Source: Cyanobium sp. NIES-981
GTDB taxonomy: Bacteria; Cyanobacteriota; Cyanobacteriia; PCC-6307; Cyanobiaceae
DNA: 32,052 nucleotides
Direction of reading: 5' to 3'
Assembly (NCBI GenBank): GCA_945901765.1
Contig: CAMDLO010000020.1
Location: forward strand, 1-32,052
Both the position numbers and the translations under genes were made by a program. Below the pieces are notes generated by a model that saw only the letters and a list, made by a program, of their open reading frames with translations, ran no database searches and was not told the origin of the DNA. Shown here in pieces: positions 2,093-31,773 of this stretch; the first letter of the stretch is position 1; the number at the start of each line of letters is the position of its first letter.

Positions 2093-3537
2093 TGGGCCCG
2101 ACTGCCACCACCAGCCGCCAGGCCAGAGGTCGAGAAGCCACCGTGCTGAACGGCCACCAGGCCACAGGTCGAGAAGCCACAGTGCTGAACGGCCGCCAGG
2201 CCACAGTGCTGATCGACGGCAACAACTTCTACGCCTCCTGCGAGGCGGTGGTGGACCCGGCGGTGCTCGGCCGGCCCCTGGTGGTGCTCTCCAACAACGA
2301 CGGCTGCATCGTGTCGCGCAGCGCCGAAGCCCGCGCCCTCGGTATCCCCATGGGCCAGCCCTACTTCCAGGTGCAGCGCCAGCTGCAGCGCCAGGGGGTG
2401 CTCGTGCGCAGCTCCAACTACGCCCTCTACGCCGACATGAGCCAGCGGCTGATGACCGTGCTCGAGGAGTGGGTGGAGGCGCTGGAGATCTACTCGATCG
2501 ACGAAGCCTTCGGCCTGCTGCACCGCCCCGCCCCGGCCAGCGACGGCGGCGGCGATCTCACGGCCTGGGGGCACGCCCTGCGCCGCGACGTGCGCCGGCG
2601 CCTGGGGCTGCCGGTGGCGGTGGGCATCGCCCCCACCAAGGTGCTGGCCAAGCTGGCCAACAAGTGGGCCAAAACGGCCCCGCCAGGCGGCGGCGGCCGG
2701 CCGGAGGTGTTCGACCTGGGCGCCTGCCCGCCAGCCCAGGCCGAGGCGGTGCTGGCGGCCACCGCCATCGAGGACGTGTGGGGCATCGGCCGCAAGCTCG
2801 CGCGCTGGTGCCGGCTGCGGGGCTGCGCCGACGCCCGCGCCCTGCGCGATCTGCCCACCGGCGAACTGCGCCACCGCTGCGGCGTGGTGGGGGTGCGGCT
2901 GCAGCAGGAGCTGCGCGGCCACGCCTGCCTGCCCCTGGAGCTCGTGCCACCCGCCAAGCGGGAAACCTGCGTGAGCCGCAGCTTCAGCCAGCCGGTGACC
3001 AGCCTGGCCCAGCTGAAGGAAGCCGTGGCCACCTACACGAGCCGGGCGGCGGAGAAGCTGCGGCGCCAGGGTCAGCGGGCCGGTGCCCTCACCGTGTTCG
3101 TGCGCAGCAGCCCGTTCAACGGCACCAGCTTCTACGCCAACGCCGCCACGGTGCGGCTCTCCCTGGCCAGCCAGGACACAGCCGTGCTGCTGGCCGCCGC
3201 CCTGCCCCTGGCCGAGGCCCTGTTCCGCCCCCACAAACCCCTGCAGAAGGCCGGGGTGGTGCTGCAACAGCTGGAGGAGGAAGCCCTGCTGCAGCACCAC
3301 CTGCTGGTGCCCCTGCCACCGGAGCAGCAGCAGCGCCGCAGCGCCCTGCTGGCCGCCGTGGACGGCCTCAACCGCCGCTACGGCAGCGGCACGGTGCAGT
3401 GGGCCGCCTGCGGCCTGGCCCGCCCCTGGGCCATGCGCCGCAGCCAGCTGTCACGGGCCGCCACCACCCGCCTGGCCGACATCCCGGTGGCGTGGGCCGG
3501 CGAGCAGCACGTCCAGCCCCAGACAACCGCGACTTAA
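2092..3537 (+). CDS. umuC: Y-family DNA polymerase V catalytic subunit UmuC
   Basis: Error-prone translesion polymerase, acting with UmuD'. Clear family motifs are LIDGNNFYASCE (metal-binding Asp at about residue 42), NNDGCIVSRSAEARALGI and YSIDEAFG (second catalytic acidic pair). The little-finger and C-terminal regions follow to 481 residues. With the ATG at 2092, which overlaps the umuD stop, the protein carries about 38 extra N-terminal residues. These are made of repeated REATVLNG/QATG segments, absent from typical UmuC (about 420-430 residues). The repeat ends exactly where the conserved domain begins, so the extension looks like tandem duplication of the original start region. An alternative is initiation at the GTG at 2206, immediately before LIDGNN, with the repeats untranslated. 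Confidence 0.93.
   Translation: MGPTATTSRQARGREATVLNGHQATGREATVLNGRQATVLIDGNNFYASCEAVVDPAVLGRPLVVLSNNDGCIVSRSAEARALGIPMGQPYFQVQRQLQRQGVLVRSSNYALYADMSQRLMTVLEEWVEALEIYSIDEAFGLLHRPAPASDGGGDLTAWGHALRRDVRRRLGLPVAVGIAPTKVLAKLANKWAKTAPPGGGGRPEVFDLGACPPAQAEAVLAATAIEDVWGIGRKLARWCRLRGCADARALRDLPTGELRHRCGVVGVRLQQELRGHACLPLELVPPAKRETCVSRSFSQPVTSLAQLKEAVATYTSRAAEKLRRQGQRAGALTVFVRSSPFNGTSFYANAATVRLSLASQDTAVLLAAALPLAEALFRPHKPLQKAGVVLQQLEEEALLQHHLLVPLPPEQQQRRSALLAAVDGLNRRYGSGTVQWAACGLARPWAMRRSQLSRAATTRLADIPVAWAGEQHVQPQTTAT
2114..2209 (+). repeat. 39-bp tandem repeat at the 5' end of umuC (about 2.6 copies)
   Basis: Two 39-bp units begin at 2114 and 2153 and differ at only a few positions. A third begins at 2192 and lacks an internal 15-bp piece (GTCGAGAAGCCACAG-like), as if lost between short direct repeats. 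The unit length keeps the umuC frame open. Confidence 0.85.
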
Positions 3538-3563
3538 AGTAGACGATTGCTCAACTGGCATAC

Positions 3564-3716
3564 ATGACGCCAACCGCTCAACGTTGCTGCAACTGCCTGA
3601 ACTTCAGTGGATGCCAGGGAGTAGCCGGGATCTGCAGGGTCTGGCAGGCACTGCTGAGCGCACCCTTGGCATCCAGCAACCGCTGCCAGTTCTGGACGCA
3701 CACCGGCAAACCCTGA
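3564..3716 (+). CDS. Possible 50-residue Cys-rich protein downstream of umuC
   Basis: A short frame begins with an ATG 26 bases after the umuC stop on the same strand. It encodes a 50-residue peptide with six Cys (8, 9, 11, 17, 24 and 41) in the arrangement RCCNCLNFSGCQG...ICRVW...RCQFW. The spacing of Cys and Trp looks like a small metal-binding or disulfide-rich protein rather than random frame. I do not recognise a named family. No strong ribosome-binding site is seen, so translation could depend on umuC readthrough. The opposite strand has a competing 58-codon frame (3578-3754) that starts just past a terminator and looks less convincing. Confidence 0.42.
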   Translation: MTPTAQRCCNCLNFSGCQGVAGICRVWQALLSAPLASSNRCQFWTHTGKP

Positions 3717-3755
3717 TCCCCGGCCGGCAGGCAGCATTGATCCGGCAGGCCCATA

Positions 3756-3783
3756 AAAAAGCGGACCCGTCCAGGACCCGCTC
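3756..3783 (-). terminator. Rho-independent terminator
   Basis: On the minus strand AGCGGGTCC, a five-base loop and GGGTCCGCT (two G-T wobbles) are followed by six T. It lies 30-57 bases after the stop of the gene at 3813-4076 and is oriented to end that transcript. Confidence 0.85.
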
Positions 3784-3812
3784 GATGACCAGCCACAGTC
3801 TATGAACTTCTG

Positions 3813-4076
3813 TTACGGGTTGGCGGGTGGAAGATCGGCCAGGGCCGCTTCGATCATCGCCGCCGTGACCGGGATGGTCTCAAGCTCATCGGCGTTGTCG
3901 AGGAAGGCCTCGAACGAGGCATAACGGCGGATGCAGGGCTCAGCGCCTGGGGCAGCGCAAGCAGCCGGCCAGTCGCCATCGTCGGGCTTGACCGTGGCAT
4001 ACCCCTGCAGAGCCTCCTCCAGGTCGGCACCGTCCGCAATGCCGTCGCCGTGCCAGAGCACCTCGTAAAAGCCCAT
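3813..4076 (-). CDS. Small acidic hypothetical protein
   Basis: An 87-residue soluble, acidic protein (MGFYEVLWHGDG start, many Asp/Glu/Ala) without membrane segments. It has two Cys (about 40 and 48) and an Ala-rich helical C-terminus (AAMIEAALADLPP). I do not recognise the family. Coding status is supported by normal length and composition and by the strong terminator placed 30 bases beyond its stop. It is separated by 42 bases from the Cys-rich gene upstream on the same strand and could be co-transcribed with it and dnaG. No convincing Shine-Dalgarno sequence precedes the ATG. Confidence 0.6.
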   Translation of the reverse strand: MGFYEVLWHGDGIADGADLEEALQGYATVKPDDGDWPAACAAPGAEPCIRRYASFEAFLDNADELETIPVTAAMIEAALADLPPANP

Positions 4077-4118
4077 GGCCAGGCCACATCCGGTACACCA
4101 ACGGACCCTAGGCCCAGA

Positions 4119-4448
4119 TCACCACACGCCGAACCAGGGGTCAGCGAAGCCGTCATCGAAAGGCTCGACCCGCCATTCAGGTGCGGGACCGCCCGCACTG
4201 GGGGGCTTGGGCGGGCCGGAGAGGGTCTCCGGCGTGATGCCGGGAATGGGTTCAGCGGCGCAGGGGCACTGGCAGGTGCCGTCCGGGCCGATGGTGCCCA
4301 GGGTCGGCTGGCCGCAGTTGCAGCCGCAGTCCTGGGCCCGGACAGGGAGCAGCGGCAGGAACGGTGCAGGCAGCACTGAGCCGGCCAGGAACAGGCTGAG
4401 GCCCAGGCGGGCGAGGGCAGACAAAACGACGCCATGGCAGGGCCGCAA
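4119..4448 (-). CDS. Putative exported Cys-rich small protein
   Basis: A frame just 10 bases after dnaG encodes about 109 residues. It has a hydrophobic segment (LARLGLSLFLAGSVL...PVRAQ) that looks like a signal peptide. Then follow two clusters of three Cys (DCGCNCG and TCQCPC), a Pro/Gly-rich linker and a Trp-ended acidic tail (FADPWFGVW). The most plausible starts are TTG at 4448 or TTG at 4424; no ATG or GTG lies in a sensible position. The frame is also open into dnaG upstream, which is probably fortuitous. I do not recognise the family. The alternating CxCxC pattern suggests metal binding or disulfides; this is inference. Confidence 0.5.
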   Translation of the reverse strand: MRPCHGVVLSALARLGLSLFLAGSVLPAPFLPLLPVRAQDCGCNCGQPTLGTIGPDGTCQCPCAAEPIPGITPETLSGPPKPPSAGGPAPEWRVEPFDDGFADPWFGVW

Positions 4449-4458
4449 CGCTAGGGGC

Positions 4459-6576
4459 TCAGGCGGCCGCACCGAAACCGGCACAGCGCTGGGCATCGAG
4501 CTGCTGCAGATAGCGGCGTTCGCCGTAGTACAGCTCCTGGAAGTGCAGGGCATCGGCATTCAGCTGGGCGAACAACGCCTCGATCCGCACCTCCATGTCA
4601 TGCACCACTGGGTCATGCACCACTGGGTCATGCACCACCGGGTCATGCACCACCGGCTCCAGAGAGGCCGCGGTATCCGGTTGCTCCAGCAGGCGGGCGA
4701 TGCAGCGCTCCAGGGTTTCCAGCCGCTGACCGCTCCAGGCATCAAGCAGATGGCGGCAGCGCTTGAGGCACTTCTGCCGCTCCAGCACCGCCGTGGCACC
4801 GCGCAGCTGCAGCAGGGGCTGGCTGAACCCGATCGCCTGCAGCTCATTCGGCTCCAGCAGCGGCGTGAGCCGGCCAAGCAGGGCGCTCTCCTCCAGCACC
4901 AGCTGATCGGAGAGCAGGCGTGGCAGGTCGAGATCGGCCAGCTCATGGCCGGGATCCAGACCCCTGCTGATCGCCTCCAGCCGGCCGGCACCAAGGTTCG
5001 TCTCCTCCAGTGCGCTGATCGAGGCCCAGAGCTGGCGGTGGTGCACCAGGGCGAAGTCTTCGAGCTCGAGCCGACGCAACTCGGTGCGGATAGCGCCCCG
5101 CTGCAGCGGGCAGTGGATGTAGAGGCGCAGCACCTCCGCCTCCGCCCGCTCGCGCACCCCCGCCTCACCCGGTTGTTCCCACTTCTGGGAGCGGCCATGC
5201 CAGCGCTGGCCCTTCACCTGCTGGCGCAGGTCATCTTCCAGCTGCAGCGCCAGCCGCGCCTGGCCGCCGCTCAGGCGCTCGGCCACCTGCTGCAGATAGC
5301 GGCTGCGCACCGCGCTCTGGGGGAGCTTGCCGAGCAGCGCCACCAGGGCGGTGACGGCCTGCTGGAACTGGTCGGCCTTGCCCAGATCACGGCCCGCCAG
5401 CACCTGGTCGATCTGCCAATCGAGCCAGATCGGCGCCTGATCGAGCAGGGCGCGGTACTCGCCGGCACCGCGATCAACCAGAAACTCATCGGGGTCCTTG
5501 CCGGCCGGCAGATGCAGCACCCGCAGCTCCAGCTGCCCCTGCAGCGCCAGCTGCTCCACCTCACCGATCGCCCGCTGGGCGGCCCGCACACCGGCGCCGT
5601 CGCTGTCGAAATTGAGAATCAGCCGTCGGCTGTCGGTGCAGCGGCACAGCTGAGTGATCTGCTGACTGCTCAGGGCCGTGCCCAGGGCGGCCACCGCATT
5701 GGTGATGCCGGCGGCATGCAGAGCGATTACATCGAAGTAGCCCTCCACCACCACCGCCCGGTCATCGCGGCGGATGGCATCGGCAGCGCGGTCGAGACCG
5801 AAGAGATGCTTGCCCTTCTCAAACACCTCCGTTTCCGGGGAGTTGAGGTATTTGGGTTCGCCGCCATCCAGACTGCGGCCGCCGAAGCCGATCACCCGAC
5901 CCTGCCGGTCCTTGATCGGCACCATCACCCGGCCGCGGAAGCGGTCGTAGAACCCATCGCCCCCCTTGCGGGGCACCACCAGCCCGGCCGCCTCCAGCAG
6001 CTCAGGCGCGTAACCATGCACCTGGCGCAGATGCTCGAGCAGGCCGTCCCAGCGGTCGGGGGCAAAGCCCAGCTCGAAGGCCTCCAGGGTGCTCTCGCTC
6101 AGGCGCCGCTGCCGGCGCAGGTAGGCCAGGGCAGCCTCCCCCTCCGGCGCCCGCAGCTGACTGCGGAACCAGCCGCTCGCCAGGGCCAGCACCTTCTGCA
6201 GCCGCTCGCGCCGGGAGAGCTGCTGACGCAGCCGTTCCTGCTGGGGTCCGTCGAGGGTCTCCACCGGCAGCTGGTATTTGCGCGCCAGCTCCAGCACCAC
6301 ATCGCTGAAGCTCTGGCGCTGCAGTTCCATCAGGAACTTGATGGCGTTGCCGCCGGCGCCGCAGGAGAAGCAGTAATAGAACTGCTTGGCCGGCGACACC
6401 GTCATCGACGGCGACTTGTCGTCGTGGAACGGACAGATCCCCACGAACTCCCGCCCCTTCTTCTTGAGCACCACGTGCTCGCCCACCACATCGACGATGT
6501 CGGCCCGTTCCTTGACGGCCTCGATCGTGCGGGGATGGAGGCGGGGCAGGCTCAAGGGCGCGGCCGAGGCAGGCAT
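4459..6576 (-). CDS. dnaG: DNA primase
   Basis: A 705-residue primase that makes RNA primers at the replication fork. The N-terminal CHC2 zinc-binding motif is visible (CPFHDDKSPS ... CFSCGAGG). It is followed by the RNA-polymerase core (GFYDRFRGRVMVPI) and TOPRIM residues (VVVEGYFDVIALH with the catalytic Glu, and NFDSDGAG). The C-terminal helicase-interaction region is divergent, as in other cyanobacteria. A four-fold VVHDP repeat (residues about 642-661) is inserted 44 residues before the C-terminus, between a helical segment and the final coiled region. The start ATG at 6576 faces the divergent EamA gene across 109 bases. Confidence 0.97.
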   Translation of the reverse strand: MPASAAPLSLPRLHPRTIEAVKERADIVDVVGEHVVLKKKGREFVGICPFHDDKSPSMTVSPAKQFYYCFSCGAGGNAIKFLMELQRQSFSDVVLELARKYQLPVETLDGPQQERLRQQLSRRERLQKVLALASGWFRSQLRAPEGEAALAYLRRQRRLSESTLEAFELGFAPDRWDGLLEHLRQVHGYAPELLEAAGLVVPRKGGDGFYDRFRGRVMVPIKDRQGRVIGFGGRSLDGGEPKYLNSPETEVFEKGKHLFGLDRAADAIRRDDRAVVVEGYFDVIALHAAGITNAVAALGTALSSQQITQLCRCTDSRRLILNFDSDGAGVRAAQRAIGEVEQLALQGQLELRVLHLPAGKDPDEFLVDRGAGEYRALLDQAPIWLDWQIDQVLAGRDLGKADQFQQAVTALVALLGKLPQSAVRSRYLQQVAERLSGGQARLALQLEDDLRQQVKGQRWHGRSQKWEQPGEAGVRERAEAEVLRLYIHCPLQRGAIRTELRRLELEDFALVHHRQLWASISALEETNLGAGRLEAISRGLDPGHELADLDLPRLLSDQLVLEESALLGRLTPLLEPNELQAIGFSQPLLQLRGATAVLERQKCLKRCRHLLDAWSGQRLETLERCIARLLEQPDTAASLEPVVHDPVVHDPVVHDPVVHDMEVRIEALFAQLNADALHFQELYYGERRYLQQLDAQRCAGFGAAA
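4594..4653 (-). repeat. 15-bp tandem repeat (4 copies) near the 3' end of dnaG
   Basis: Four near-identical 15-bp units (GGGTCATGCACCACT on the plus strand) encode VVHDP-VVHDP-VVHDP-VVHDM. They sit outside the catalytic and zinc domains and keep the reading frame. Confidence 0.92.
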
Positions 6577-6621
6577 TCAATTCTGACGGGAACACCCGCG
6601 CCGGTCCCGGGGCCGCTGTCA

Positions 6622-6651
6622 GCATGCTGCCACCGGGGGGCAGCGGCATGC
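6622..6651. promoter_or_regulatory. Dyad symmetry between dnaG and the EamA gene
   Basis: GCTGCC and GGCAGC (6626-6631 and 6639-6644) form a 6-bp stem around a seven-base loop, flanked by GCATGC hexamers at 6622-6627 and 6646-6651. It lies in the 109-bp divergent promoter region and could be a protein-binding site or an RNA hairpin in the EamA leader. No function is assigned. Confidence 0.3.
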
Positions 6652-6685
6652 CCCGCTCCCCGGTGAAAGCGATCCGGAGGGGCTG

Positions 6686-7576
6686 GTGAACCACACCAAG
6701 ACGGGCGCCAGCAAGCGGCCCGTGCTGGCGATGCTGGCCAGTGCCCTGGCCTTCAGCCTGATGGGCGTCTGCGTCAAGCAGGTGGGGACACGCCTTCCGG
6801 CCGCCGAAGTGGTGCTGGCCAGGGCACTGCTCAACGTGGTCTTCAGCTGGTGGCTGCTCCAGAGAGCTGGCATCGATCCCTGGGGCCGGCGGCGGGGCCT
6901 GCTGATCACGCGGGGGGCGATCGGCAGCGTGGCCCTGCTGTGCGTCTACGTGGCTCTGGCGGAGCTGCCGCTCGCCGCGGCGACCGTGCTCCAGTACCTC
7001 TATCCCACCTTCACCGCCGTGCTGGCCTGGGGGATGCTGGGGGAGCGGATCGGCAGGCGGGCGCTGGCGGCCGTGCTGCTGGGCTGGGGCGGCGTGGTGC
7101 TGATGGCCGGGCGAGGGGTCGGCCTTGGCGGCAGCACCGCCCTGCCCGCCACACCTGTGCTGATCGCGGTGGCCGGCGCCCTGTGCACGGCCCTGGCCTA
7201 CGTGAGCGTGCGGTCCCTGGCCCGCAGCGAGCATCCGCTGGTGATCGTGTTCTATTTCCCGTTGGTGGCGGTGCCGCTCAGCCTGCCCCTGGTGCTGGTC
7301 AACCCGGTGATCCCAACGCCGCAGGAGTTGCTGTGGCTGCTGGGAGTGGGCCTGTTCACCCAGCTCGGGCAGGTGACCCTGACCCAGAGCCTCACCGCCC
7401 TGCCGGCAGCGCGGGCAACGGCGATCAGCACGGTGCAGGTGGTGTTCGCCGCGCTCTGGGGCTGGCTGATCTTTGCGGAAAGCCTGGGACTACGCACCCT
7501 GGCTGGCGCTCTGCTGATCCTGGCCGCCACACTGATCAGCCTGAATGCCCCGGCGCGAAGGGAAGCGGATCGGTGA
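6686..7576 (+). CDS. EamA/DMT-family transporter
   Basis: A 296-residue inner-membrane protein with about ten hydrophobic helices arranged as two EamA repeats. In the first, ALAFSLMGVCVKQV opens the repeat and VLQYLYPTFTAVLAWGMLGE closes it. In the second, AISTVQVVFAALWGWLIFAE is the matching end. The family exports or exchanges metabolites such as amino acids; the substrate cannot be told from sequence. Translation starts at GTG 6686, supported by a good GGAGG 5-9 bases upstream. The 3' end overlaps the convergent lipoprotein gene by 41 bp. Confidence 0.9.
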   Translation: MNHTKTGASKRPVLAMLASALAFSLMGVCVKQVGTRLPAAEVVLARALLNVVFSWWLLQRAGIDPWGRRRGLLITRGAIGSVALLCVYVALAELPLAAATVLQYLYPTFTAVLAWGMLGERIGRRALAAVLLGWGGVVLMAGRGVGLGGSTALPATPVLIAVAGALCTALAYVSVRSLARSEHPLVIVFYFPLVAVPLSLPLVLVNPVIPTPQELLWLLGVGLFTQLGQVTLTQSLTALPAARATAISTVQVVFAALWGWLIFAESLGLRTLAGALLILAATLISLNAPARREADR

Positions 7577-8000
7577 TCCACAGCTGGGGCTCTGCGGATC
7601 CACTGTGGCTGGGGCGCGCCAGCCGCCAGCTCTGGCCACGCGTGCCGCGCTGCAGGTAGATCTCGAACGGACTGTCCACACGGATCGGATCGCCCGGGAG
7701 CCGCCAGTCGAACCGGCCGCTCAGATGCCAGCCCCGCGCCTCACCGATCGCCAGCGGCTCCTGGCTGTCGACCCGCACGCGGCTCACCTCCGGCTGCCCG
7801 GTGCTCTCAAGCTGCAGTGCCTGGGCGATCGCCCCCTGGGTGAGCTCGATCTGCAGGCTCAGCGCATCGAGCAGCACGCTGCGGGGCGGCTGGCCGACGG
7901 CGCCGCAGGCCGTGAGCGAGACCAGCAGCAGCAGGCACACCACCAGTCCGGACAGGCGGCGGCGAACCGTGGAAGCGGGGGTGGACGGTGCGGGCAGCAT
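7536..8000 (-). CDS. Putative lipoprotein, conserved hypothetical
   Basis: A 154-residue protein with a positively charged N-terminus, a hydrophobic core and a lipobox (LTAC, Cys at about 32), so probably lipid-anchored. The mature part has a long amphipathic start (ALSLQIELTQGAIAQALQL) and a beta-rich C-terminus ending in LWITDPLPF. No enzymatic motif is seen and no named family is recognised. The ATG at 8000 is chosen because it sits at the right distance from the signal segment. An ATG 13 codons upstream would overlap the ruvA start. It is divergent from ruvA with only 21 bases between them, so the promoters must overlap neighbouring coding sequence or be shared. Confidence 0.75.
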   Translation of the reverse strand: MLPAPSTPASTVRRRLSGLVVCLLLLVSLTACGAVGQPPRSVLLDALSLQIELTQGAIAQALQLESTGQPEVSRVRVDSQEPLAIGEARGWHLSGRFDWRLPGDPIRVDSPFEIYLQRGTRGQSWRLARPSHSGSAEPQLWITDPLPFAPGHSG

Positions 8001-8021
8001 GGAACGACTCAGACTGCTTCC

Positions 8022-8678
8022 ATGATCGGCTGGCTGCATGGCGAACTCGCCGATCCCTGGCAGCAGGACAAACGCTGCGGACTGCTGCTGGTCTGCCATG
8101 GCGTGGGCTACGAGGTGCAGGTGAGCGCGCGGCAGTGGCAGCGGCTGCCGGCACCGGGACGATCGCTGGCGTTGCACATCCATCAGGCGGTGCGCGACGA
8201 CGGCTGGACCTTGTACGGCTTCGGCGAGCGGCACGAACGGGACCTGTTCCGCGAGCTGGTGGCCGTGAGCGGCGTGGGACCGCAGATGGCCCTGGGCCTG
8301 CTGGGCTGCCTGGAAAGCCACCAGCTGGTGCAGGCGATCGTGCAGGCGGATCTGCGCAGCCTCTGTCAGGCACCGGGGGTGGGCCGGCGCACGGCGGAGC
8401 GGCTGGCGGTGGAACTGCGGGCCCGGTTGCAGCAGCGCTTCCTCGGCCAGCTGGGCGCCGATGGCGATGATCCGGCCCTGTCGCTGGCGGCCTCACCCCT
8501 TCAGGACGACCAGCGCGACGAGGTGCAGCTGACGCTCGCTGCCCTGGGATATGAGGCCCTCGAGGTGCACCGGGCCCTGCGGGCCCTGGCGGCGGCTGAC
8601 GCAGGCAACGGCGCCGACTGGAGCGCCGATGACTGGATCCGCGAGTGCCTCCGTTGGCTATCCCGCCAGGCGGCCTGA
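8022..8678 (+). CDS. ruvA: Holliday junction branch migration protein RuvA
   Basis: A 218-residue RuvA, which binds four-way junctions and loads the RuvB motor during recombinational repair. The N-terminal OB-fold begins MIGWLHGELADPW. It is followed by the two helix-hairpin-helix motifs (VSGVGPQMALGLL and APGVGRRTAERLAVEL), an acidic linker and the small C-terminal RuvB-binding domain (DEVQLTLAALGY...). Length and order match the family. The ATG at 8022 gives the canonical N-terminus; the upstream open frame is antisense to the lipoprotein gene. Confidence 0.96.
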   Translation: MIGWLHGELADPWQQDKRCGLLLVCHGVGYEVQVSARQWQRLPAPGRSLALHIHQAVRDDGWTLYGFGERHERDLFRELVAVSGVGPQMALGLLGCLESHQLVQAIVQADLRSLCQAPGVGRRTAERLAVELRARLQQRFLGQLGADGDDPALSLAASPLQDDQRDEVQLTLAALGYEALEVHRALRALAAADAGNGADWSADDWIRECLRWLSRQAA

Positions 8679-8763
8679 GGCGAGACGGTAAGGTGATCGT
8701 TTGAAGCACAGAAGCTCCGTGCCGGCGTCAGCCCGGTCGGCCCTTCCTCCCACCTCATCCTCC

Positions 8764-9033: not shown

Positions 9034-9068
9034 GGAGCATCACCAACGTGAGGGCAGGCTGCTGAGCG

Positions 9069-9581
9069 ATGGCAGGCAAAGGCATCCGGCCCAGCGGCCC
9101 CCCATCCAATGGCCGTTCATCCAGTGGCCGGTCGTCCAATGGCCGTCCGTCTAATGGCCGTCCGTCTAATGGCCGTGCGTCCAGTGAACTCAGGGCCGGA
9201 GCTGTCAGGTCAAGCGATGGGGGGGCCTCCAGGCCTGTCCGCAAACCAGCAGCCCGAGCCCAGGTGATTCCGGAAGCCGTCGCCAATCGCATGGCGCGGC
9301 GGATCGCCATCGGCACCGGCATCCCCAGCCTGCTTGGCATGGGCGTGTTCATCGGCAGTTACCTGCTGGTGAGCCGCCAGATCCTCGACGTCCCCCCCGG
9401 CGTGACCCTGCTGACTTCGGGCGCCTGTTTTCTGCTCGGATTGCTCGGTCTCAGTTATGGGGTGCTGTCCGCCAGCTGGGAGGAACAACCTGGAAGCGTC
9501 CTCGGCACCGAACAGTTGGGCCTCAACATCAGCCGTATTCGCGAATCGGTCGCGTCGATGCGTCAACGGCGCGATGGCTGA
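9069..9581 (+). CDS. PAM68-family photosystem II assembly protein
   Basis: A 170-residue protein with two transmembrane helices (about 84-101 and 112-134) separated by a short loop and followed by a C-terminal segment (SWEEQPGSVLGTEQLGLNI), matching the PAM68/DUF3464 family. Plant and cyanobacterial members help early photosystem II assembly. The first 70 residues are non-conserved and contain five copies of an SNGRP-like pentapeptide encoded by a 15-bp repeat. The start follows GAGGGCAGG by about a dozen bases. It lies 35 bases after rpsO and probably shares its transcript. The 3' end overlaps the convergent glycosyltransferase gene by 19 bp. Confidence 0.88.
   Translation: MAGKGIRPSGPPSNGRSSSGRSSNGRPSNGRPSNGRASSELRAGAVRSSDGGASRPVRKPAARAQVIPEAVANRMARRIAIGTGIPSLLGMGVFIGSYLLVSRQILDVPPGVTLLTSGACFLLGLLGLSYGVLSASWEEQPGSVLGTEQLGLNISRIRESVASMRQRRDG
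9105..9179 (+). repeat. 15-bp tandem repeat (5 copies) in the PAM68-family gene
   Basis: Five 15-bp units of the form TCYARTGGCCGTYCG start at 9105, 9120, 9135, 9150 and 9165, with a decayed sixth. They encode S-N/S-G-R-P/S in the disordered N-terminal extension. Confidence 0.92.
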
Positions 9582-17694: not shown

Positions 17695-17716
17695 CTCGTC
17701 TGGACGCTATCAGCTT

Positions 17717-17778
17717 GTGCCAACGCAACAGCCGGGTGTGCCAACGCAACAGCCGGGGGTGCCAACGCAACAGCCGGG
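17717..17778. repeat. 21-bp tandem repeat (3 copies) upstream of gatA
   Basis: Three copies of GTGCCAACGCAACAGCCGGG plus one spacer base start at 17717, 17738 and 17759, the 20-bp cores being identical. They fill most of the 96-base gap between the DUF1816 gene and gatA. They are non-coding as annotated, although one minus-strand frame across them is open (PAVALA repeats). Confidence 0.95.
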
Positions 17779-23043: not shown

Positions 23044-23418
23044 TCAAGTCTCCTGATCGGTGGTGTCAAAGCTCGAACCCACCGCCTCCGCCGCTGCAGG
23101 CGCCGGCCGGAAACCGGCGGCCCACACCGCCCGGGTGCGCAGGTGCAGCGCCTCGCGGTCGAGCCCCCAGAGGCGCAGCACCCGCTCAAGGTCGTCCTGC
23201 AGATCATCAGCACCCGGAAAACCCTGATAGCGCATCAACAGCCGGGCCGCATCGATCAGGTCGGCATCGGCAGGTGTCTCCGCCGCCAGCAACCGATCGA
23301 CCACATCGCGGTCCAGGGCATGCAGAGGGTGGCTCTGCCGCGCAGACCCGGCTGCAGTGGAGGCTGTGGTGGAGGCTGCAGTGGAGGCTGTGGTGGAGGG
23401 GTCGGCGCTGTTCGGCAT
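23044..23418 (-). CDS. DUF3288 family protein
   Basis: A 124-residue protein. Its core (SHPLHALDRDVVDRLLAAE, then LLMRYQGFPGADDLQDDL, then VLRLWGLDREALHLRTR) matches the cyanobacterial DUF3288 pattern of a small helical protein of unknown role. The N-terminal 25 residues are an Ala/Ser/Thr stretch (TTASTAAS-type) encoded by a 12-bp tandem repeat and absent from typical members (about 95-100 residues). The ATG at 23418 (MPNSADP) is used. It is divergent from the ABC exporter across 88 bases. Confidence 0.83.
   Translation of the reverse strand: MPNSADPSTTASTAASTTASTAAGSARQSHPLHALDRDVVDRLLAAETPADADLIDAARLLMRYQGFPGADDLQDDLERVLRLWGLDREALHLRTRAVWAAGFRPAPAAAEAVGSSFDTTDQET
23357..23400. repeat. 12-bp tandem repeat (about 3.6 copies) in the DUF3288 gene
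   Basis: Units GTGGAGGCTGTG and GTGGAGGCTGCA alternate from 23357, giving a 24-bp higher-order period, and decay at 23400. On the minus strand they encode the Ala-Ser-Thr-Thr/Ala low-complexity N-terminus. Confidence 0.9.
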
Positions 23419-23506
23419 GGCGGCGCAGTCAGGCGGTGCGGAACCGGGAGGCGCAGACAGCATTCCCCGCCGATCCCTAGGTTGGCCCCATCTTCGACCC
23501 GTTGGC

Positions 23507-25264: not shown

Positions 25265-25397
25265 ACACACCCGAACAGTTGTTGCGACTCGTCCATCGTC
25301 GCGGCAGGAGCAGGTGGATGGGCCCACGCTGGGAACCAGCGCAATGCGGTCCGAAGCACCTCTTCCGCCACCATCCGCCACCCCCCCCAGCAGCTCC

Positions 25398-25694
25398 ATG
25401 GCTTCCAGCTCTGTCTCCCCAACGACCCAGGTCCCTGCGCCGGTGACTGGACTTCCTCCCCAGGGATTCAACCTGCGCTGCACCCTCACCTTCGGCGACA
25501 TCTACGCCCAGATCCTGATCTGGATGGCGGTGATCTTCGTGAGCCTCGCCGCCGGCCTCGCCCTGATGGGCACCAGCAAACCGATCGTGGCGCTGGTGGG
25601 GGTGGGTCTGATCCTGGTGCTGTCGCTGCCGTTTCTGCTCTTCGCCTTCACCACCACGCTCCTGAACCACATCGCCCTCGATCCCCAGCGCTGA
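25398..25694 (+). CDS. Conserved two-span membrane protein of unknown function
   Basis: A 98-residue protein with a Pro/Ser-rich head and two closely spaced transmembrane helices (about 37-57 and 62-87). They are joined by GTSKPIVAL and preceded by TLTFGDIYAQILIW; it ends NHIALDPQR. I recognise this as a pattern common in marine and freshwater Synechococcus but cannot give it a family name. An ATG at 25344 would add 18 Pro/Ser-rich residues encoded across a C8 run. It lies between the ABC exporter and msrA on the same strand. Confidence 0.72.
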   Translation: MASSSVSPTTQVPAPVTGLPPQGFNLRCTLTFGDIYAQILIWMAVIFVSLAAGLALMGTSKPIVALVGVGLILVLSLPFLLFAFTTTLLNHIALDPQR

Positions 25695-25731
25695 ACCCCC
25701 TGACTAGGCTCTGCGCAGTTGCGCTCAGTCG

Positions 25732-26466
25732 GTGTTCGCAGAGCTGTTCGGCAGGGTGAGTGGCAAGCCGGCATCAGCGCCAGGCAGCGATTCCGCAGCT
25801 GGCCCGGCCCATGCCGTGCTGGGCACGCCAATCGCGATGGTGCCGGCCGCGGGGCAGGCGGAAGCGGTGTTCGGCTGCGGCTGTTTCTGGGGGGCGGAGA
25901 AGGGCTTCTGGCGGTTGCCGGGGGTGCTCACCACCGCCGTCGGCTATGCCGGGGGTCAGAGCCCATCGCCGACCTACCAGCAGGTGTGCTCCGGCCGCAC
26001 CGGCCACACCGAGGTGGTGCGGGTGGTATGGGACGAGCAACAGCTCGGCTTCAGCGACCTGCTCAAGCTGTTCTGGGAATGCCACGACCCCACCCAGGGC
26101 GACCGGCAGGGCAACGACCGGGGCTCCCAATACCGTTCGGCCATCTACGTGAGCAACAGCTCCCAGCAGGCCCAGGCGGAAGCCAGCCGCGCCGCCTACC
26201 AGGAACTGCTCAGCGCCGCAGGTCTGGCCGCGATCACCACCGAGATCGCCGGCGACCGCACGTTCTGGTACGCCGAGGAGTACCACCAGCAGTACCTGGC
26301 CAAACCCGGCAGCCGCCCCTACTGCTCGGCCCAGCCGACCGGGCAGCGTCTTGGTGCGTTCGCAGGAGCGGATTACCGGCTCGATCCTCGGGTGTGGCTT
26401 CACTACGACTGGAGCATCAGCCACTGTGTGCTGCGGGGCGACAACAGCCCGATCCAGCTCCCGTGA
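25732..26466 (+). CDS. msrA: Peptide methionine sulfoxide reductase A
   Basis: A 244-residue enzyme that reduces methionine-S-sulfoxide in oxidised proteins. The active-site motif [11 protein letters not shown] has nucleophilic Cys51 and Glu56; GYAGG, HTEVV, HDPTQ and GSQYRSAIY follow in order. The C-terminal extension (from about 205, [19 protein letters not shown]) contains an additional Cys and is longer than in E. coli-type MsrA. It may supply resolving or regulatory residues. The start is GTG at 25732; an ATG at 25837 would give a minimal protein, but the longer N-terminus is in frame and plausible. Confidence 0.95.
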
Positions 26467-26503
26467 GCGCGCCGCTGATCGCCCGTCGGCCTTGAGCAGC
26501 ACC

Positions 26504-26815
26504 ATGCACGGGTCGATACTGCCTTCCCTGCTGATCAGCCTCGGGCTGCTGAGCCAGGGATCACCATGGTGGGAGCACTACGACAGCAGCGACACCTTCC
26601 TCTGCCCCCGGCTGGGGCGGGTGGTGCTGGAGCGCAATGAAGCGCAGGCCTCACTGCTGGCGGGCGGAGTGCGCAGCACCGGCTTCCGGGAGGATTCCAG
26701 CCTGCCGGGGCTGCGGTACAGCAACGCCGGGATGACCCTGATTCTGCGCGGCGATCTGCTCACAATCGAACAACGACCGAGCAGGATTGAGTGCACCCGC
26801 ACGGAGCGGGTCTGA
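26504..26815 (+). CDS. Small secreted protein, MliC-like arrangement
   Basis: A 103-residue protein with a hydrophobic N-terminus (SILPSLLISLGLL) that looks like a signal peptide. Two Cys (FLCPRLG and IECTRT) bracket a beta-rich core with GLRYSNAGMTLILRGDLLTIE. The two-Cys layout and the 'RYS...GD..' core resemble the MliC lysozyme-inhibitor domain of the protein at 1092-1457, but the similarity is weak and the assignment tentative. It begins 37 bases after msrA and is followed by a small membrane protein gene 27 bases on. Confidence 0.68.
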   Translation: MHGSILPSLLISLGLLSQGSPWWEHYDSSDTFLCPRLGRVVLERNEAQASLLAGGVRSTGFREDSSLPGLRYSNAGMTLILRGDLLTIEQRPSRIECTRTERV

Positions 26816-26842
26816 ACCCATGCCGCCTCCGGCTCCACAGCG

Positions 26843-26995
26843 ATGACTCCCTTGCCCGATCGCGTTGTGCTGCTCGGCCTGATCCTGACGATCGGGCTCT
26901 GCTTCGCGCTGGTTCTGTGGCAGGTCAAACTCCACCCCAGCGGCGAACCACCGCTGCTCTGGCGGGACAACGGCCCCGCAGCCCTGCTCCCGTGA
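26843..26995 (+). CDS. 50-residue single-span membrane protein
   Basis: A short gene encoding MTPLPDRVV, a transmembrane helix (LLGLILTIGLCFALVLW) and a 25-residue polar tail ending LLWRDNGPAALLP. It overlaps the next gene by four bases (GTGA) and is on the same strand as msrA and the MliC-like gene. The clean helix and coupled arrangement argue that it is real. No family is recognised. Confidence 0.62.
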   Translation: MTPLPDRVVLLGLILTIGLCFALVLWQVKLHPSGEPPLLWRDNGPAALLP

Positions 26996-27315
26996 AGGAG
27001 TCGGATCCCAGCCCCCTCCAACGCCCCCTTCACCCCCTGCCCAGGGGCTTGGTGGAGCTGTACGGCTTGCTGGCCGTTCTGGTGGTGCTGATCCCCGAAT
27101 GGATCGCGGGCGCGGCGGGCGGGGCGGGCGGCGGTCCCCTTCCCGCCCAGACGCAGGCCTGGCTGCGACTGCCGGAACTGCGGCTGGCCAGCATGAGCCT
27201 GGCAGAGCTGCGGCGGCTGGCGGCAACGCAACGGTTGAGAGGTTACGGGCGGTTGGGCCGGGAGACGCTCACGGCCCAGCTGCTGCGCCGCCTTGGAGGC
27301 TCAAAAGCACTGTGA
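26992..27315 (+). CDS. Membrane protein with SAP/Rho-N-like C-terminal motif
   Basis: A 107-residue protein starting at GTG 26992, overlapping the previous stop (GTGA). A hydrophobic segment (LYGLLAVLVVLIPEWIAGAAGG) is followed by a Gly/Pro linker. The C-terminal motif, MSLAELRRLAATQRLRGYG then LGRETLTAQLLRRL, has the two-helix pattern of SAP/HeH/Rho N-terminal domains that bind nucleic acid. Membrane tethering of such a motif is unusual; the role is unknown. Confidence 0.75.
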   Translation: MKESDPSPLQRPLHPLPRGLVELYGLLAVLVVLIPEWIAGAAGGAGGGPLPAQTQAWLRLPELRLASMSLAELRRLAATQRLRGYGRLGRETLTAQLLRRLGGSKAL

Positions 27316-27339
27316 TAACGTCCATTTGCCGGCTTGAAC

Positions 27340-27413
27340 CGGGGCGTAGCGCAGCTTGGTAGCGCACCACTTTGGGGTAGTGGGGGTCGTGGGTTCAAAT
27401 CCCGCCGCTCCGA
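27340..27413 (+). tRNA. tRNA-Pro(GGG)
   Basis: A complete 74-nt cloverleaf: acceptor CGGGGCG pairs with CGCTCCG (one G-T), D-arm GCGC-AGCTTGGTA-GCGC, anticodon stem CCACT/AGTGG with loop TTGGGGT (anticodon GGG), and T-arm GTGGG-TTCAAAT-CCCGC with discriminator A. CCA is not encoded. Confidence 0.96.
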
Positions 27414-27454
27414 TTGTTGATCAACCGGCTCCATCCCTGCGGGAGCATGTGCCA

Positions 27455-27480
27455 GCCGCCCCTCTCCGGGCGGCTTTTTT
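27455..27480 (+). terminator. Rho-independent terminator after tRNA-Pro
   Basis: GCCGCCC, loop CTCTCC and GGGCGGC are followed by six T, 41 bases after the tRNA. It marks the end of the 25.4-27.4 kb transcription unit or of the tRNA transcript. Confidence 0.92.
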
Positions 27481-27584
27481 GTTGGAACATGAGCAGGGCA
27501 GGAACGGTTCTCCGTATCGACTGGCACCCCTCAGGCCCCTCGAATCCGCCTAGACCGGTTGGGTAACGATGCGCTTGATTCGGC

Positions 27585-27821
27585 ATGCGCGAGATCGTGT
27601 TCCGCGTTCTCAGCGAATCCAACGGACTGATTGAGGCGGAAACGGATGACCGCACCATGCGGGTGCGGGCCCCGTCGCTCGAGGATCTGCACCATGAGGC
27701 CCGTGAGGCGCTGATCACCCGGTTCGGGCCGGCCCACTGTGCCTACAAGGTGCGCTTCAGCCGGGCGCTCAGCGCCAGTGCGATCCGGCCGCTGCGCCGG
27801 CCCCCGGCCCCCTGCCGCTGA
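27585..27821 (+). CDS. 78-residue hypothetical protein
   Basis: A small basic-tailed protein beginning MREIVFRVLSESNGLIEAE. A strand (DDRTMRVRAPSLEDL) and a helix (HHEAREALITRFGP) follow. The strand-strand-helix order with 'A.SLEDL...REAL' recalls the small HicB/DUF1902-like fold, but no catalytic or DNA-binding motif is present and the match is weak. No toxin gene is adjacent. The ATG at 27585 follows the terminator by about 100 bases. Confidence 0.65.
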   Translation: MREIVFRVLSESNGLIEAETDDRTMRVRAPSLEDLHHEAREALITRFGPAHCAYKVRFSRALSASAIRPLRRPPAPCR

Positions 27822-27888
27822 GCGGCGCGGCGGATTGGCGCCGCCGCCTGAACCAGGCATGCTGGGTGCGGATTGCTTCACCACCGCA

Positions 27889-30171
27889 ATGACGTCGGGC
27901 GAATCGCTCCTGTCCCGTTCACCAGCGGCCTTCCCGGGGGCCGAGGGTTTCGGTGCAGGCGCCACAGGCGGCCGCGGCGGACAGGTCATCGCCGTGACCA
28001 CCACCGCAGCAAGTGGTGTCGGGTCACTGCAGTGGGCCCTTGATCAACCAGGACCGAAGACGGTGGTGTTCCGGACCAGCGGGCTGATCGATGCCCGCAT
28101 CCATCTCCGCCGAGGCGATGTGACCATCGCCGGCCAGACATCGCCCGGTGGGATCACCATCCGCGGCTTTGTGACCGATGAGACGCCCTTCCAGGACCAG
28201 GCGGTGCGGACACCGGATCAGACAGCCGAGAACTGGATCCTGCAACACATCCGAATCCGGCCGGGGCCTGATGGCCCAAGCGACGACGGCCTGAGGCTGC
28301 GGTACACCCGCAACGCCATTGTTGATCACGTCTCGATCGGCAATGCCACCGACGAAGCGGTCGAAATCTCATACTCAAATAACATCACCATACAAAACTC
28401 AATCATCGCCGAAACAGTAGGCAGCCATTCGTTTTACGGCGGCATGCTACTGAACTATTCAAATCCAGCCCATGGATTTGCGCTCGACAATCTATCGATT
28501 CACCACAATCTGTTCAGCCGAATCGAAGGGCGCCTGCCGGAAGCCTCCCGGGAATCGGCGGGGGCGGCAGGCAGCGTGATGAATCTTGAGCTGACCAGCA
28601 ATCTCTACTGGGATCCCCAGTTCTTCATCGCCCTTGCTGCCGATACTGGCGTGGTCACTGATGAGGCCGGCAATCCCTACCCCGTTCACTACCGATTGAA
28701 CGCGACCAACAACGTCTTTCACGCCGGGGACAACTTTGCCTACGGCATGTGGGATGACCAGATTCTGCGGGCCCCCTCAGCGCCGTTGAACCAGCTTTTT
28801 GTGCAAGGCAACCGATTCAATCTGTACCCGGATCGATCTGATTACGAGCTGTTTTACTGCTGCAACGATTATGCGCAGACCAGCAGCCCAGACGCCACCG
28901 CCCGGCTTGCCCAGATGATGGAGGAGCGTCACCCGTTCCCGGCAATCACCGCCACAGCGGCGGAGCAGTTACCGGAGGTGCTGGCGGAGCGGGTTGGGGC
29001 GTGGCCGAGGGATCCGATGGACACCCGGCTGCTGGACGCGGTGCGCCTCAATCGCCTTGAGCCCGAACCGCTGAACATCAATCCAGCCGGCGATGCCTGG
29101 CTGCCGGCCCTGGCCTCCCCGCCACCCCCTCCCGAGGACAGCGACGGCGACGGCATGCCGGACGACTGGGAGCTGGCGCAGGGCCTGAATCCCGAAGCAG
29201 CGAACAACAACGCCTTCACCCTGTCGCGCGAGGGCTACACCGACCTGGAGGTGTATCTGCACGAGCTGGCCGCGCTCCGCAGCAGTGGTGAGCCCACCCA
29301 GACAGAGCCCGCGTTCCACATCCACGTGGCGCAGCCCAGCCTGAGCGAGGGGCAGACAACGGGCAACCGCCTGCCCATTCAGATCAGCCGCAGTGGCAAC
29401 AGCAACGGCAGCGCCTCGGTGCACTGGCAGGTGAGCGCAGGACCCGGCACAGCCGCTCAGGCCGGGGATTTTGCCGGCGGAACCTGGCCAGCAGGTATGA
29501 TAACTCTCGCCGAGGGCCAGAGCTCAGGCCTGATCAGCGTGGATCTAGCTGGCGACCGCCTGGCCGAAGCGGACGAGACCTTCACCATCACGCTGAGCAA
29601 TCCGGTTGGTGCTGAGCTGACGGCGGGACAGAGCAACCGCACCGTCACGATCGTGAACGACGACTGGGTCGGTGGACCAGGGGCAGACACCCTCATCGGC
29701 ACCGCGGCTGCGGATTTTCTCGATGGCGGCAATGGTCCCGACGTGCTCACCGGTGCAGCCGGGGCTGATCAATTCGGGTTCCGGCCGCGGCAATCAACGA
29801 TCGCGGCGCCGGATCTGATCACCGATTTCCGGATCGGGGAAGACAGGATCGCCATTCTCAATGGGCGCGGGGAGGTGCAGGCGCCACCAGCAGACCTGAA
29901 CCGAGGGGCGACCAACAGAACCGCCTCAAGCCTGAGGGAGCTAGCCCAGGCGGTCTGGGCTGATGCCGATCGAACCCGGAGGGGCAATCAGCCGCTCGGG
30001 TCGAACCAGGCTGTCATGGTGCGATCCGGCCACCCCTCCCTTCGCGGGACCTATCTGCTGATCAATGATCAGAATCCAATGCTGCAGCAGCGGAGCGACC
30101 TGATGATCCGCTTCGGGGGTAATGGCACGCCGGCGATCCTGGTGGGGGAGTCGGCAGCCCTGTTCCTCTGA
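27889..30171 (+). CDS. Pectate lyase-type PL1 protein with Calx-beta and RTX regions
   Basis: A 760-residue modular protein. Residues 14-340 form a parallel beta-helix of the PL1 pectate-lyase type (FPGAEGFGAGATGGRGG start, VDHVSIGNATDEAVEI, HSFYGGML, LSIHHNLFSRIEGRLPE). A Ca-binding SDGDGMPDDWELAQGLNP follows (about 418-435), then a Calx-beta domain (about 482-590). RTX nonapeptides come next (GADTLIGTAAADFLDGGNG..., about 598-628) and a C-terminal segment resembling the cyanobacterial 'bluetail' surface domain (YLLINDQNP). There is no N-terminal signal peptide, so type I secretion is expected. Around 28320-28500 the base composition is noticeably richer in A/T than the flanks, suggesting transfer. 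Start at 27889 (ATG); an ATG at 27859 is also possible. Confidence 0.88.
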   Translation: MTSGESLLSRSPAAFPGAEGFGAGATGGRGGQVIAVTTTAASGVGSLQWALDQPGPKTVVFRTSGLIDARIHLRRGDVTIAGQTSPGGITIRGFVTDETPFQDQAVRTPDQTAENWILQHIRIRPGPDGPSDDGLRLRYTRNAIVDHVSIGNATDEAVEISYSNNITIQNSIIAETVGSHSFYGGMLLNYSNPAHGFALDNLSIHHNLFSRIEGRLPEASRESAGAAGSVMNLELTSNLYWDPQFFIALAADTGVVTDEAGNPYPVHYRLNATNNVFHAGDNFAYGMWDDQILRAPSAPLNQLFVQGNRFNLYPDRSDYELFYCCNDYAQTSSPDATARLAQMMEERHPFPAITATAAEQLPEVLAERVGAWPRDPMDTRLLDAVRLNRLEPEPLNINPAGDAWLPALASPPPPPEDSDGDGMPDDWELAQGLNPEAANNNAFTLSREGYTDLEVYLHELAALRSSGEPTQTEPAFHIHVAQPSLSEGQTTGNRLPIQISRSGNSNGSASVHWQVSAGPGTAAQAGDFAGGTWPAGMITLAEGQSSGLISVDLAGDRLAEADETFTITLSNPVGAELTAGQSNRTVTIVNDDWVGGPGADTLIGTAAADFLDGGNGPDVLTGAAGADQFGFRPRQSTIAAPDLITDFRIGEDRIAILNGRGEVQAPPADLNRGATNRTASSLRELAQAVWADADRTRRGNQPLGSNQAVMVRSGHPSLRGTYLLINDQNPMLQQRSDLMIRFGGNGTPAILVGESAALFL

Positions 30172-30178
30172 AAGGCCT

Positions 30179-30195
30179 CTGAGAGGCGGTCTCAG
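30179..30195. terminator. Hairpin between convergent genes
   Basis: CTGAGA, loop GGCGG and TCTCAG form a perfect 6-bp stem flanked by GGCC on both sides (30174-30201). It overlaps the last codon of the minus-strand gene. No T run follows on either strand, so it is at best a weak bidirectional terminator. Confidence 0.4.
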
Positions 30196-30671
30196 GCGGC
30201 CTGATCAAGCCAGGGCTCGCCGTTCACCCGCTCCTGCCGACGCGGCTTGGCAGAACGGCTCGAAGGGGCGGGTCCAGCCATGGCCAAACGGTCCCGCTGG
30301 GGCCGGCGATCCGCCTGGCTCACCATCAAGGCTGGACACCAGTGCAGCAAAGCGGCGTGAACTGCACGGAAACAGGCGCGGCTGCGCGGAGCACCTGCGG
30401 CCATCGCTTCGTTGCTGAGCAGTTCGGCTGTGATCTCCAGGCCACGCCCGGCAGTGGCAGCCGATCGAGCCCAGCTGAACACCAGGCGAAAGGTCTGACC
30501 GTGGGTCTGATCGACCCTTGCGGCGGCAAGACCGGTGGGGCAGGCGCCAGCAGGTTGGAAACCGAGCTGGGCGCTCAGTGCAAGCAGGGGACCGGCAGGA
30601 TCGGCAATGCCGGCCTGCCCCTCTCCCTCTGCAGGTTCTGGCCAGAGGTAGCTGGCGGAGAAACGGGCCAT
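30192..30671 (-). CDS. Hypothetical protein, 159 residues
   Basis: A soluble protein without signal peptide or membrane helix (MARFSASYLWPEPAEGE start, a Trp/Cys-rich centre LLHWCPALMVSQADRR and a basic C-terminus). The first 115 residues look folded, with strands such as TFRLVFSWARSA and a helix ITAELLSNEAMAA. I do not recognise it. It converges on the pectate-lyase gene with 20 bases between the stops and lies downstream of the desaturase on the same strand (94-base gap, in which I see no feature). Confidence 0.62.
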   Translation of the reverse strand: MARFSASYLWPEPAEGEGQAGIADPAGPLLALSAQLGFQPAGACPTGLAAARVDQTHGQTFRLVFSWARSAATAGRGLEITAELLSNEAMAAGAPRSRACFRAVHAALLHWCPALMVSQADRRPQRDRLAMAGPAPSSRSAKPRRQERVNGEPWLDQAA

Positions 30672-30765
30672 GGGAAAACTTCAGTGATCGCCGCCGATCG
30701 GGGAAGGGGGGCGTGCCATGCCCTATGTACCCAGATTGATCCCCGGTTGGCCAGCGCTTCCGCCA

Positions 30766-31773
30766 CTAAAGCCCGCCAGCTGCTCTGGCCAGCAGGGCCC
30801 GTTCACTCGGTCGACGCAGATGGGACGCCAGACCGAAGCGCTCCAGCAGCCGAATGAAGCGGTAGGTGGGATCCGGCAACCGGCAAACCCGTTGGTCCTT
30901 AATGGTGAATCCCTGCTGCACCGAGGCCTGAAAGGCGTGGTGGCAGTTGTGCCAACCCTCCCCCAGGGTGATGAGCGCAACCCAGCCATTGTTGCGGCTG
31001 GCATCGGCGGTGGCGAAGGGTTGGGAACCGATCAGATGGGCGACGGAGTTGACGCTGGCAACACCGTGGAAGAGCACGGTGGTGCTCAGACAGAAGGCGC
31101 CCAGCCATTCCAGACCACCGAGCCACCACGAGAGGATCGCCAGCGCCAGCACCGGCAGGGCATGCAGGCGGTCGATCAGACGCAGCACTGGATCCGCCTC
31201 CACATCAGCCGGCAGGATGGCGGGGTGGAACTCGGGGCTGAGCAGCCAACCGGCCTGGGAATGCCAGAAACCTCGCCAACGGTTGGCATGGCCGAGCGGG
31301 GTATGGGGATCAGCGGCGGTGTCCACGGCACGGTGATGAATCTGGTGATGGGCCTTCCACCAGCTGGGCCCCATCTGGCCAGCGGAGGCTGCCACAAGCG
31401 AGCCGATCCACCAGACCGCCCGGGGCGCCCGATAGCTGCCGTGGGTGATCAATCGGTGGTAGATCGCCGTGGTCGCCAGCATGCGGAGCAGGTAGAGAAC
31501 CACCGCCCAGGCGGCGGCAGGCAGACCGAAGCCGGTGAACAGAAGCAGGACGCAGCCGAGATGGGAGGCGATGATCAGCAGCGGACCAATCCCATGCAGG
31601 CAGCGTCTCAGCCGAGGCACTGGCGCTGCTGCCGCCACCTGAGGTGTGGGGTGATCGACTGTGAGATCAGGAGGGAGATCAGGAGTGATGCATGCAGCGA
31701 TGTCAGCAGCTCTGTCAGCAGAGATGTCAGCAGCTCTATCAGCAGCTCTATCAGCAGTGTCGCGGCGGAGCAC
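30766..31773 (-). CDS. Delta9-type fatty acid desaturase
   Basis: A membrane di-iron desaturase that introduces double bonds into acyl lipids or acyl-CoA, using ferredoxin in cyanobacteria. The three His boxes are present (HRLITH, HHQIHH and GWHNCHH), between four to five hydrophobic helices, as in DesC-type enzymes. The start is uncertain. GTG at 31638 gives 290 residues, the usual size. GTG at 31773 gives 335 and would translate the 12-bp repeat (DRAADIS-type units) as an N-terminal extension. The longer form is listed because the repeat keeps the frame open, as in other genes here. No ATG lies between the domain and the insertion element. Confidence 0.87.
   Translation of the reverse strand: MLRRDTADRAADRAADISADRAADIAACITPDLPPDLTVDHPTPQVAAAAPVPRLRRCLHGIGPLLIIASHLGCVLLLFTGFGLPAAAWAVVLYLLRMLATTAIYHRLITHGSYRAPRAVWWIGSLVAASAGQMGPSWWKAHHQIHHRAVDTAADPHTPLGHANRWRGFWHSQAGWLLSPEFHPAILPADVEADPVLRLIDRLHALPVLALAILSWWLGGLEWLGAFCLSTTVLFHGVASVNSVAHLIGSQPFATADASRNNGWVALITLGEGWHNCHHAFQASVQQGFTIKDQRVCRLPDPTYRFIRLLERFGLASHLRRPSERALLARAAGGL
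31701..31760. repeat. 12-bp tandem repeat (5 copies) at the 5' end of the desaturase gene
   Basis: Units TGTCAGCAGCTC / TATCAGCAGCTC start at 31701, 31713, 31725, 31737 and 31749, with a decayed copy before them. On the minus strand they read ADRA/ADIS. Confidence 0.92.

Follow-up and report, generated by a model that had tools for sequence, protein, structure and literature searches.

Bacterial minisatellites, or variable number tandem repeats (VNTR), consist of short units that stand head to tail, and the short tandemly repeated repetitive (STRR) sequences of cyanobacteria are repeats of a 7-bp unit. The passages of PMC6749651 that are considered here state that most long satellite units in prokaryotes have a length divisible by three and that certain species carry many unrelated arrays; for example, Methanobrevibacter ruminantium has 36 long-unit satellites, all unrelated and at least half non-coding. 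In the main text of that paper, the words "cyanobacteria" and "Synechococcus" have 0 occurrences. For Synechococcus sp. CS-601, the relevant passage of PMC6337551 gives 197 tandem repeats of up to 30 bp. Among the papers listed in literature searches, none dealt with frame-filtered minisatellites in Cyanobium, which is weak evidence of absence. Here, we describe the tandem arrays in a 32,052-nucleotide stretch of Cyanobium sp. NIES-981 (positions 1-32052 of contig C20 of the genome G000, hereafter the window), which contains six arrays in or near the genes for UmuC, DnaG, PAM68, GatA, DUF3288 and a fatty-acid desaturase (Table 1). With a probability of about 0.85, these are ordinary bacterial minisatellites, arising by duplication throughout the genome and filtered for reading frame within genes. 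The repeat kind is already known, and the sense of the initial annotation, which saw an active process of this type, is right but overstated.

Arrays were called with Tandem Repeats Finder (TRF) at score cut-offs of 50, 60 or 70, as stated for each count. The G000 sample of 832 kb comprised the window and 40 further stretches (about one third of the genome, GC content 0.68) from an assembly of 2.46 Mb in 129 contigs, and the comparison set included 12 further genomes of the same genus, with one genome per species. At a score of at least 70, the sample contained 70 arrays, compared with 1 after a dinucleotide-preserving shuffle, by which a chance origin was rejected. The arrays are made of head-to-tail units that fit the range of about 9-100 bp of minisatellites, and they are found across the sample, so that the repeats of the window have counterparts elsewhere in the genome. 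Among the 105 sample arrays with a score of at least 60, there was one similar pair, in which both arrays lie on L062 and overlap by 33 shared bases. Since this pair is a single locus, a transposed satellite family with one unit at many loci was rejected, and the absence of a common core, as first noticed within the window, holds for the sample. Outside the window, 64 arrays were present in 800 kb, and the occurrence of at least six in 32 kb has a Poisson p of 0.046; because the window was picked by the initial annotation, this is only a mild cluster. Across 80 named dnaG neighbourhoods, each between 4 and 22 kb long, the number of arrays per 100 kb lay between 0 and 29, with 18.7 in the window. 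Such arrays are thus widespread in the larger group, where the window's high density is not without parallel. An artefact of a metagenome-type draft assembly would be conceivable in a genome of 129 contigs that is 94% complete, but we regard it as highly improbable, because the window arrays are shorter than 100 bp, as are 103/105 of the sample arrays, many arrays have diverged copies, and arrays of the same kind are present in the single-contig genus mates G007 and G006.

First, the coding repeats are consistent with a reading-frame filter: unit lengths are multiples of three in genes, and less so outside them. Gene calls were made by a purpose-written script with a lowered threshold, which is biased against N-termini in its start calls, and one gene model was applied to all high-GC sets. 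"Strict non-coding" DNA excludes all in-frame upstream extensions of called genes, and the arrays in such extensions and those straddling gene ends were counted as separate classes. In G000 without the window, at a score of at least 70, periods modulo 3 (multiples of three first) were distributed as 24:1:0 in coding sequences (CDS) and 10:7:4 in strict non-coding DNA. Multiples of three therefore made up 24/25 and 10/21 of the arrays, respectively, and other units 1/25 and 11/21, so that the frame-filtered duplication proposed initially is right in outline. At a score of at least 60, the distributions were 40:3:2 (40/45) and 14:8:7 (14/29), with a Fisher p of 0.0003. The separate classes showed 7:0:2 in upstream extensions and 3:3:3 at gene ends. 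For the pooled relatives, loci with a GC content below 0.60 were excluded and 2.08 Mb with at least 0.60 was kept; here multiples of three accounted for 151/157 CDS arrays and 14/20 non-coding arrays at a score of at least 60, and the distributions at a score of at least 70 were 81:1:0 and 5:2:1. In G000 without the window (score at least 70), the CDS contained 3.5 arrays per 100 kb and the strict non-coding DNA 44.3. This is a density about 13 times higher per base outside genes, which indicates that genes are where arrays are purged.

Second, copy number varies mostly by whole units between related genomes. For cross-genome pairs, 10/260 arrays were dropped because they did not have 200 bp on each side, and the dnaG loci L168, L170, L172 and L175 were left out of these pairs and of the pooled counts in relatives as duplicates of stretches already included. 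Strong arrays, defined by a score of at least 70 and a minimum of 2.5 copies, were compared where the flanks shared 88% identity or more; 41 comparisons of 21 arrays gave 13 equal lengths, 21 exact whole-unit differences and 7 other differences, and whole units thus explain 21/28 of the length differences. With flanks at least 95% identical and a score of at least 60, 46 comparisons of 21 arrays gave 41 equal lengths and 5 differences of exactly one unit, two of which are one pair counted reciprocally. Copy numbers in relatives are accordingly not all identical. Thus none of the three outcomes named in the initial annotation as refuting the process (no such repeats elsewhere in the genome, equal numbers of other units in genes, and identical copy numbers in all relatives) was observed.

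Third, five arrays of the window are absent from the same sites in the relatives aligned there. Synteny between the window and the genus mates is extensive, and 16 entries were considered for each site, of which those with anchors missing or of zero length were left out. The array was found in 0/7 aligned relatives at the umuC site, 0/8 at the dnaG site, 0/10 at the PAM68 site and 0/9 at the gatA/DUF1816 site, where G002, G006 and G010 are without any insert, and the window's array was found in 0/12 at the DUF3288 site. Because no aligned relative has the array at these five comparable sites, the arrays look like recent local tandem duplications. For example, the DnaG of relative G008 has LEPVVRDME at the position of the window's LEPVVHDPVVHDPVVHDPVVHDME (PVVHD x4), and several relatives have a single copy of the CGCCAGGCCACCGTGCTG-like stretch of UmuC that is repeated in the window. 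Among the 40 loci recognised by a DnaG-tail pattern, which did not recognise all DnaG loci and to which the count is limited, a tandem VVxDx before the tail was found only in the five copies from G000 itself. At the umuD/umuC junction (window 2085-2210), different repeats of about 15 bp were seen by eye beside the umuD stop in G010 and G005, and this junction is possibly a repeat hot spot.

We suggest the following origin for such arrays. A short local stretch would first be copied into a head-to-tail duplicate, with slippage of the replicating strands as the most likely mechanism, and the arrays would then gain or lose mostly whole units. This duplication would act genome-wide, with non-coding DNA keeping units of any length, while selection would clear most arrays from genes, where nearly all survivors would have multiple-of-three units. 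The preference for slippage over unequal recombination draws on general knowledge, and we infer that selection acts as a filter and that the repeats have no function. Several points weigh against this account. The gene calls behind the modulo 3 contrast come from our own script. Multiples of three exceed one third in strict non-coding DNA as well (14/29 in G000 and 14/20 in the relatives), owing either to coding stretches missed by the gene calls or to some bias. In the pooled relatives, CDS and non-coding densities were 4.6 and 4.4 per 100 kb at a score of at least 70, and with this near equality, only G000 shows a clear depletion within genes. In addition, 7/28 length differences of strong arrays are not whole units, and most lengths at flanks of at least 95% identity are equal, many of these being conserved two-copy repeats inside genes.

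The coding arrays might instead be selected features of the proteins, namely flexible, length-tunable tails of core proteins with adaptive length variation. The positions give this some appeal, since three of the four coding arrays of the window are in N-terminal tails and one is in a linker, and the terminal 20% of CDS holds 10/27 of the G000 arrays (p = 0.03 for enrichment). However, relatives are depleted at terminal positions (8/82, p = 0.01), and these opposite trends amount to no general bias towards gene ends, so that the corresponding trend in the initial annotation was not borne out. The arrays in G000 are also denser outside genes, and in none of the four proteins is the array kept by the aligned relatives. 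UmuC, DnaG, PAM68 and DUF3288 are, moreover, not surface proteins. We consider selected length variation very unlikely, and frame-filtered duplication remains the preferred explanation.

The six arrays and their genes are listed in Table 1. TRF recovered all six within a few bases of the positions first given, and the unit length is a multiple of three in 6/6, as had been claimed. Gene names were assigned with Pfam, which agrees with those proposed initially (IMS/UmuC, DnaG, DUF3464 = PAM68, DUF3288 and FA_desaturase). Four of the arrays lie in coding sequence and one lies between genes, the coding status of the one ahead of the desaturase is doubtful, and the coding ones are situated in three N-terminal tails (UmuC, PAM68 and DUF3288) and one internal linker (DnaG). 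Of six arrays described initially as in-frame, four can thus be confirmed, whereas the 21-bp array is intergenic and the desaturase array uncertain; of five described in terminal parts of genes, those of UmuC, PAM68 and DUF3288 are so placed, but that of DnaG is internal and the desaturase case is again doubtful. TRF reported the PAM68 array as 15 bp with 5.3 copies at 9105-9183 and as 30 bp at 9091-9186. The DUF3288 array was reported as 24 bp with 2.1 copies or 12 bp with 4.2 copies; it lies within the space shared with a divergent ABC transporter gene, and the DUF3288 start differed between two gene-call runs (23418 and 23304).

Table 1 Tandem arrays of the window and associated features.
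Feature	Position	Strand	Remarks
umuC gene	2092-3537	+	ATG at 2092 overlaps umuD stop (TGATG), likewise in G009
39-bp array, 2.4 copies, UmuC N-terminal tail	2114-2206	+	TRF; RQARGREATVLNGHQATGREATVLNGRQATVLIDGNNF
dnaG gene	4459-6576	-	Array precedes conserved C-terminal segment
15-bp array, 3.8 copies, PVVHD repeated, DnaG variable linker	4597-4653	-	TRF
PAM68 gene (DUF3464)	9069-9581	+	MAGKG-like start region common to relatives
15/30-bp array, SNGRP-type repeats, PAM68 N-terminal tail	9091-9186	+	TRF
gatA, flank of 21-bp array	called start 17679	-	
21-bp array, 3.0 copies, intergenic gatA/DUF1816	17716-17778	.	TRF; in no gene
DUF1816 gene, flank of 21-bp array	end 17791	-	
DUF3288 gene	23044-23418	-	ATG at 23418
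12/24-bp array, DUF3288 N-terminal tail	23350-23399	-	TRF; STTASTAASTTASTAA
12/24-bp array upstream of fatty-acid desaturase domain	31694-31757	-	TRF; coding status doubtful
Dispersed repeat at contig end	31870-32052	+	23 matching places in G002, others elsewhere

The desaturase array, reported by TRF as 12 bp at 31701-31757 and as 24 bp at 31694-31757, is located 78 to 99 residues ahead of the YHRLITHGSY motif in the open reading frame (ORF), and may belong to an untranslated leader or to an N-terminal extension with a GTG start codon at 31773. In the stretches compared, this site was not syntenic (0/16 entries aligned). The motif was matched in 6/9 desaturase relatives, with 71, 71, 76, 76, 84 and 95 residues of open frame before it; the frame closes short of the array's place in 4/6, and those four cannot encode that place. 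The first part of the long desaturase ORF, from residue 1 to about 41-83, is a dispersed repeat with 23 matching places in G002 and further ones elsewhere, which makes the N-terminus of the ORF doubtful. We take the repeat to be the start of an IS3-type transposase; Pfam gave no match on the 23 residues available. Elsewhere in the window (27859-30171), a 770-residue protein has an RTX calcium-binding match and weak beta-helix, Calx-beta and M10 C-terminal matches. Among the named records matched, those nearest to the window's DnaG come from Cyanobium-like picocyanobacteria, with 88% in the best segment to a Cyanobium metagenome-assembled genome. The public metagenome-assembled contig L245 carries a DnaG that shares 77% identity with that of the window, and its label, Bifidobacterium breve, is therefore probably wrong.

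An unusual feature of G000 is its surplus of arrays between genes. At a score of at least 70, strict non-coding DNA contained 21 arrays in 47,445 bases of G000 (without the window) and 5 in 90,798 bases of the genus mates, which is an 8-fold excess (p = 1.6e-6). Per 100 kb, this corresponds to 44 in G000, whereas three sets of genus mates had 8.8, 0 and 4.7, and G021 had 0. The last genome, of the same family and with a GC content of 0.644, had no array with a score of at least 60 in 200 kb (2 with at least 50), and 0 arrays in its 13 kb of strict non-coding DNA; G015 and G022 (both with a GC content of 0.36) had 0 and 3 non-coding arrays in 57 kb. The excess, together with the array-poor G021, could point to a recent burst in the lineage, in which a raised rate of short tandem duplication was added to the ordinary process, although we put this forward only tentatively. 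In CDS, G000 is no richer in arrays (3.5 per 100 kb against 5.0 in G007, 2.5 in G006 and 3.9 in a syntenic set), contrary to what a simple rate increase would predict, and a search among repair genes gave no cause. RecJ, which was matched in 25/25 genomes (24 above the cut-off), and the large subunit of ExoVII, found in 25/25, are both present in G000. A MutS domain was found in 25/25 genomes, where the only match in G000 is MutS1-like and that in G011 is MutS2-like. MutL (TIGR00585) was found in 0/16 genomes of the family of G000 and in 9/9 of other cyanobacterial families, and the passage of PMC5101192 concerned reports several P. marinus strains without mutL; its loss was rejected as a cause, because G015 is also without MutL and yet has 0 arrays with a score of at least 70 in 200 kb. 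MutS2 was above the cut-off in 12/13 genus genomes, with G000 as the exception, but the upstream flank of the gene is on C125, which ends just before its place, and the downstream flank is on C81, which ends about 3.4 kb past that place in G007 coordinates. Since the locus is an assembly gap between these two contig ends, the missing match is no evidence that MutS2 was lost, and with RecJ, ExoVII, MutS, MutL and MutS2 considered, the loss of a repair gene was rejected as the cause of the excess. C125 matches overlapping parts of the mutS2 upstream flank twice. Overall, a recent burst of intergenic minisatellite birth through some change in replication or repair, in a family in which no MutL was found, seems rather unlikely.

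We believe that these arrays offer a clean natural case of mutation against selection, with many unit lengths between genes and nearly only frame-keeping ones inside them. In addition, the contrast in array load among near relatives could help to identify which genetic factors give rise to minisatellites in bacteria.

Compared with typical cyanobacterial repeats, the arrays of G000 are different. Unlike STRR sequences, the sample contains 0 period-7 arrays at a score of at least 50. HIP1, as presented in the relevant part of PMC4390886, is also unlike them, and with its core GCGATCGC in 1/105 sample arrays, they do not belong to HIP1. The picocyanobacterium CS-601 likewise carries tandem repeats, which are listed in the passage concerned of PMC6337551 without analysis of frame or genes. 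In the parts of PMC6749651 considered, the transposed satellite families of Leptospira differ in that no unit occupies many loci in the G000 sample, and the satellites described there share with G000 the scattered, mostly unique arrays and multiple-of-three units, although most units in G000 measure 12-44 bp and are present in few copies. The closest likeness is to bacterial minisatellites and VNTR, with which the arrays share unrelated units, whole-unit differences between related genomes and frame preservation in genes; nothing essential differs, and G000 is set apart by its greater load in intergenic DNA relative to its genus mates.

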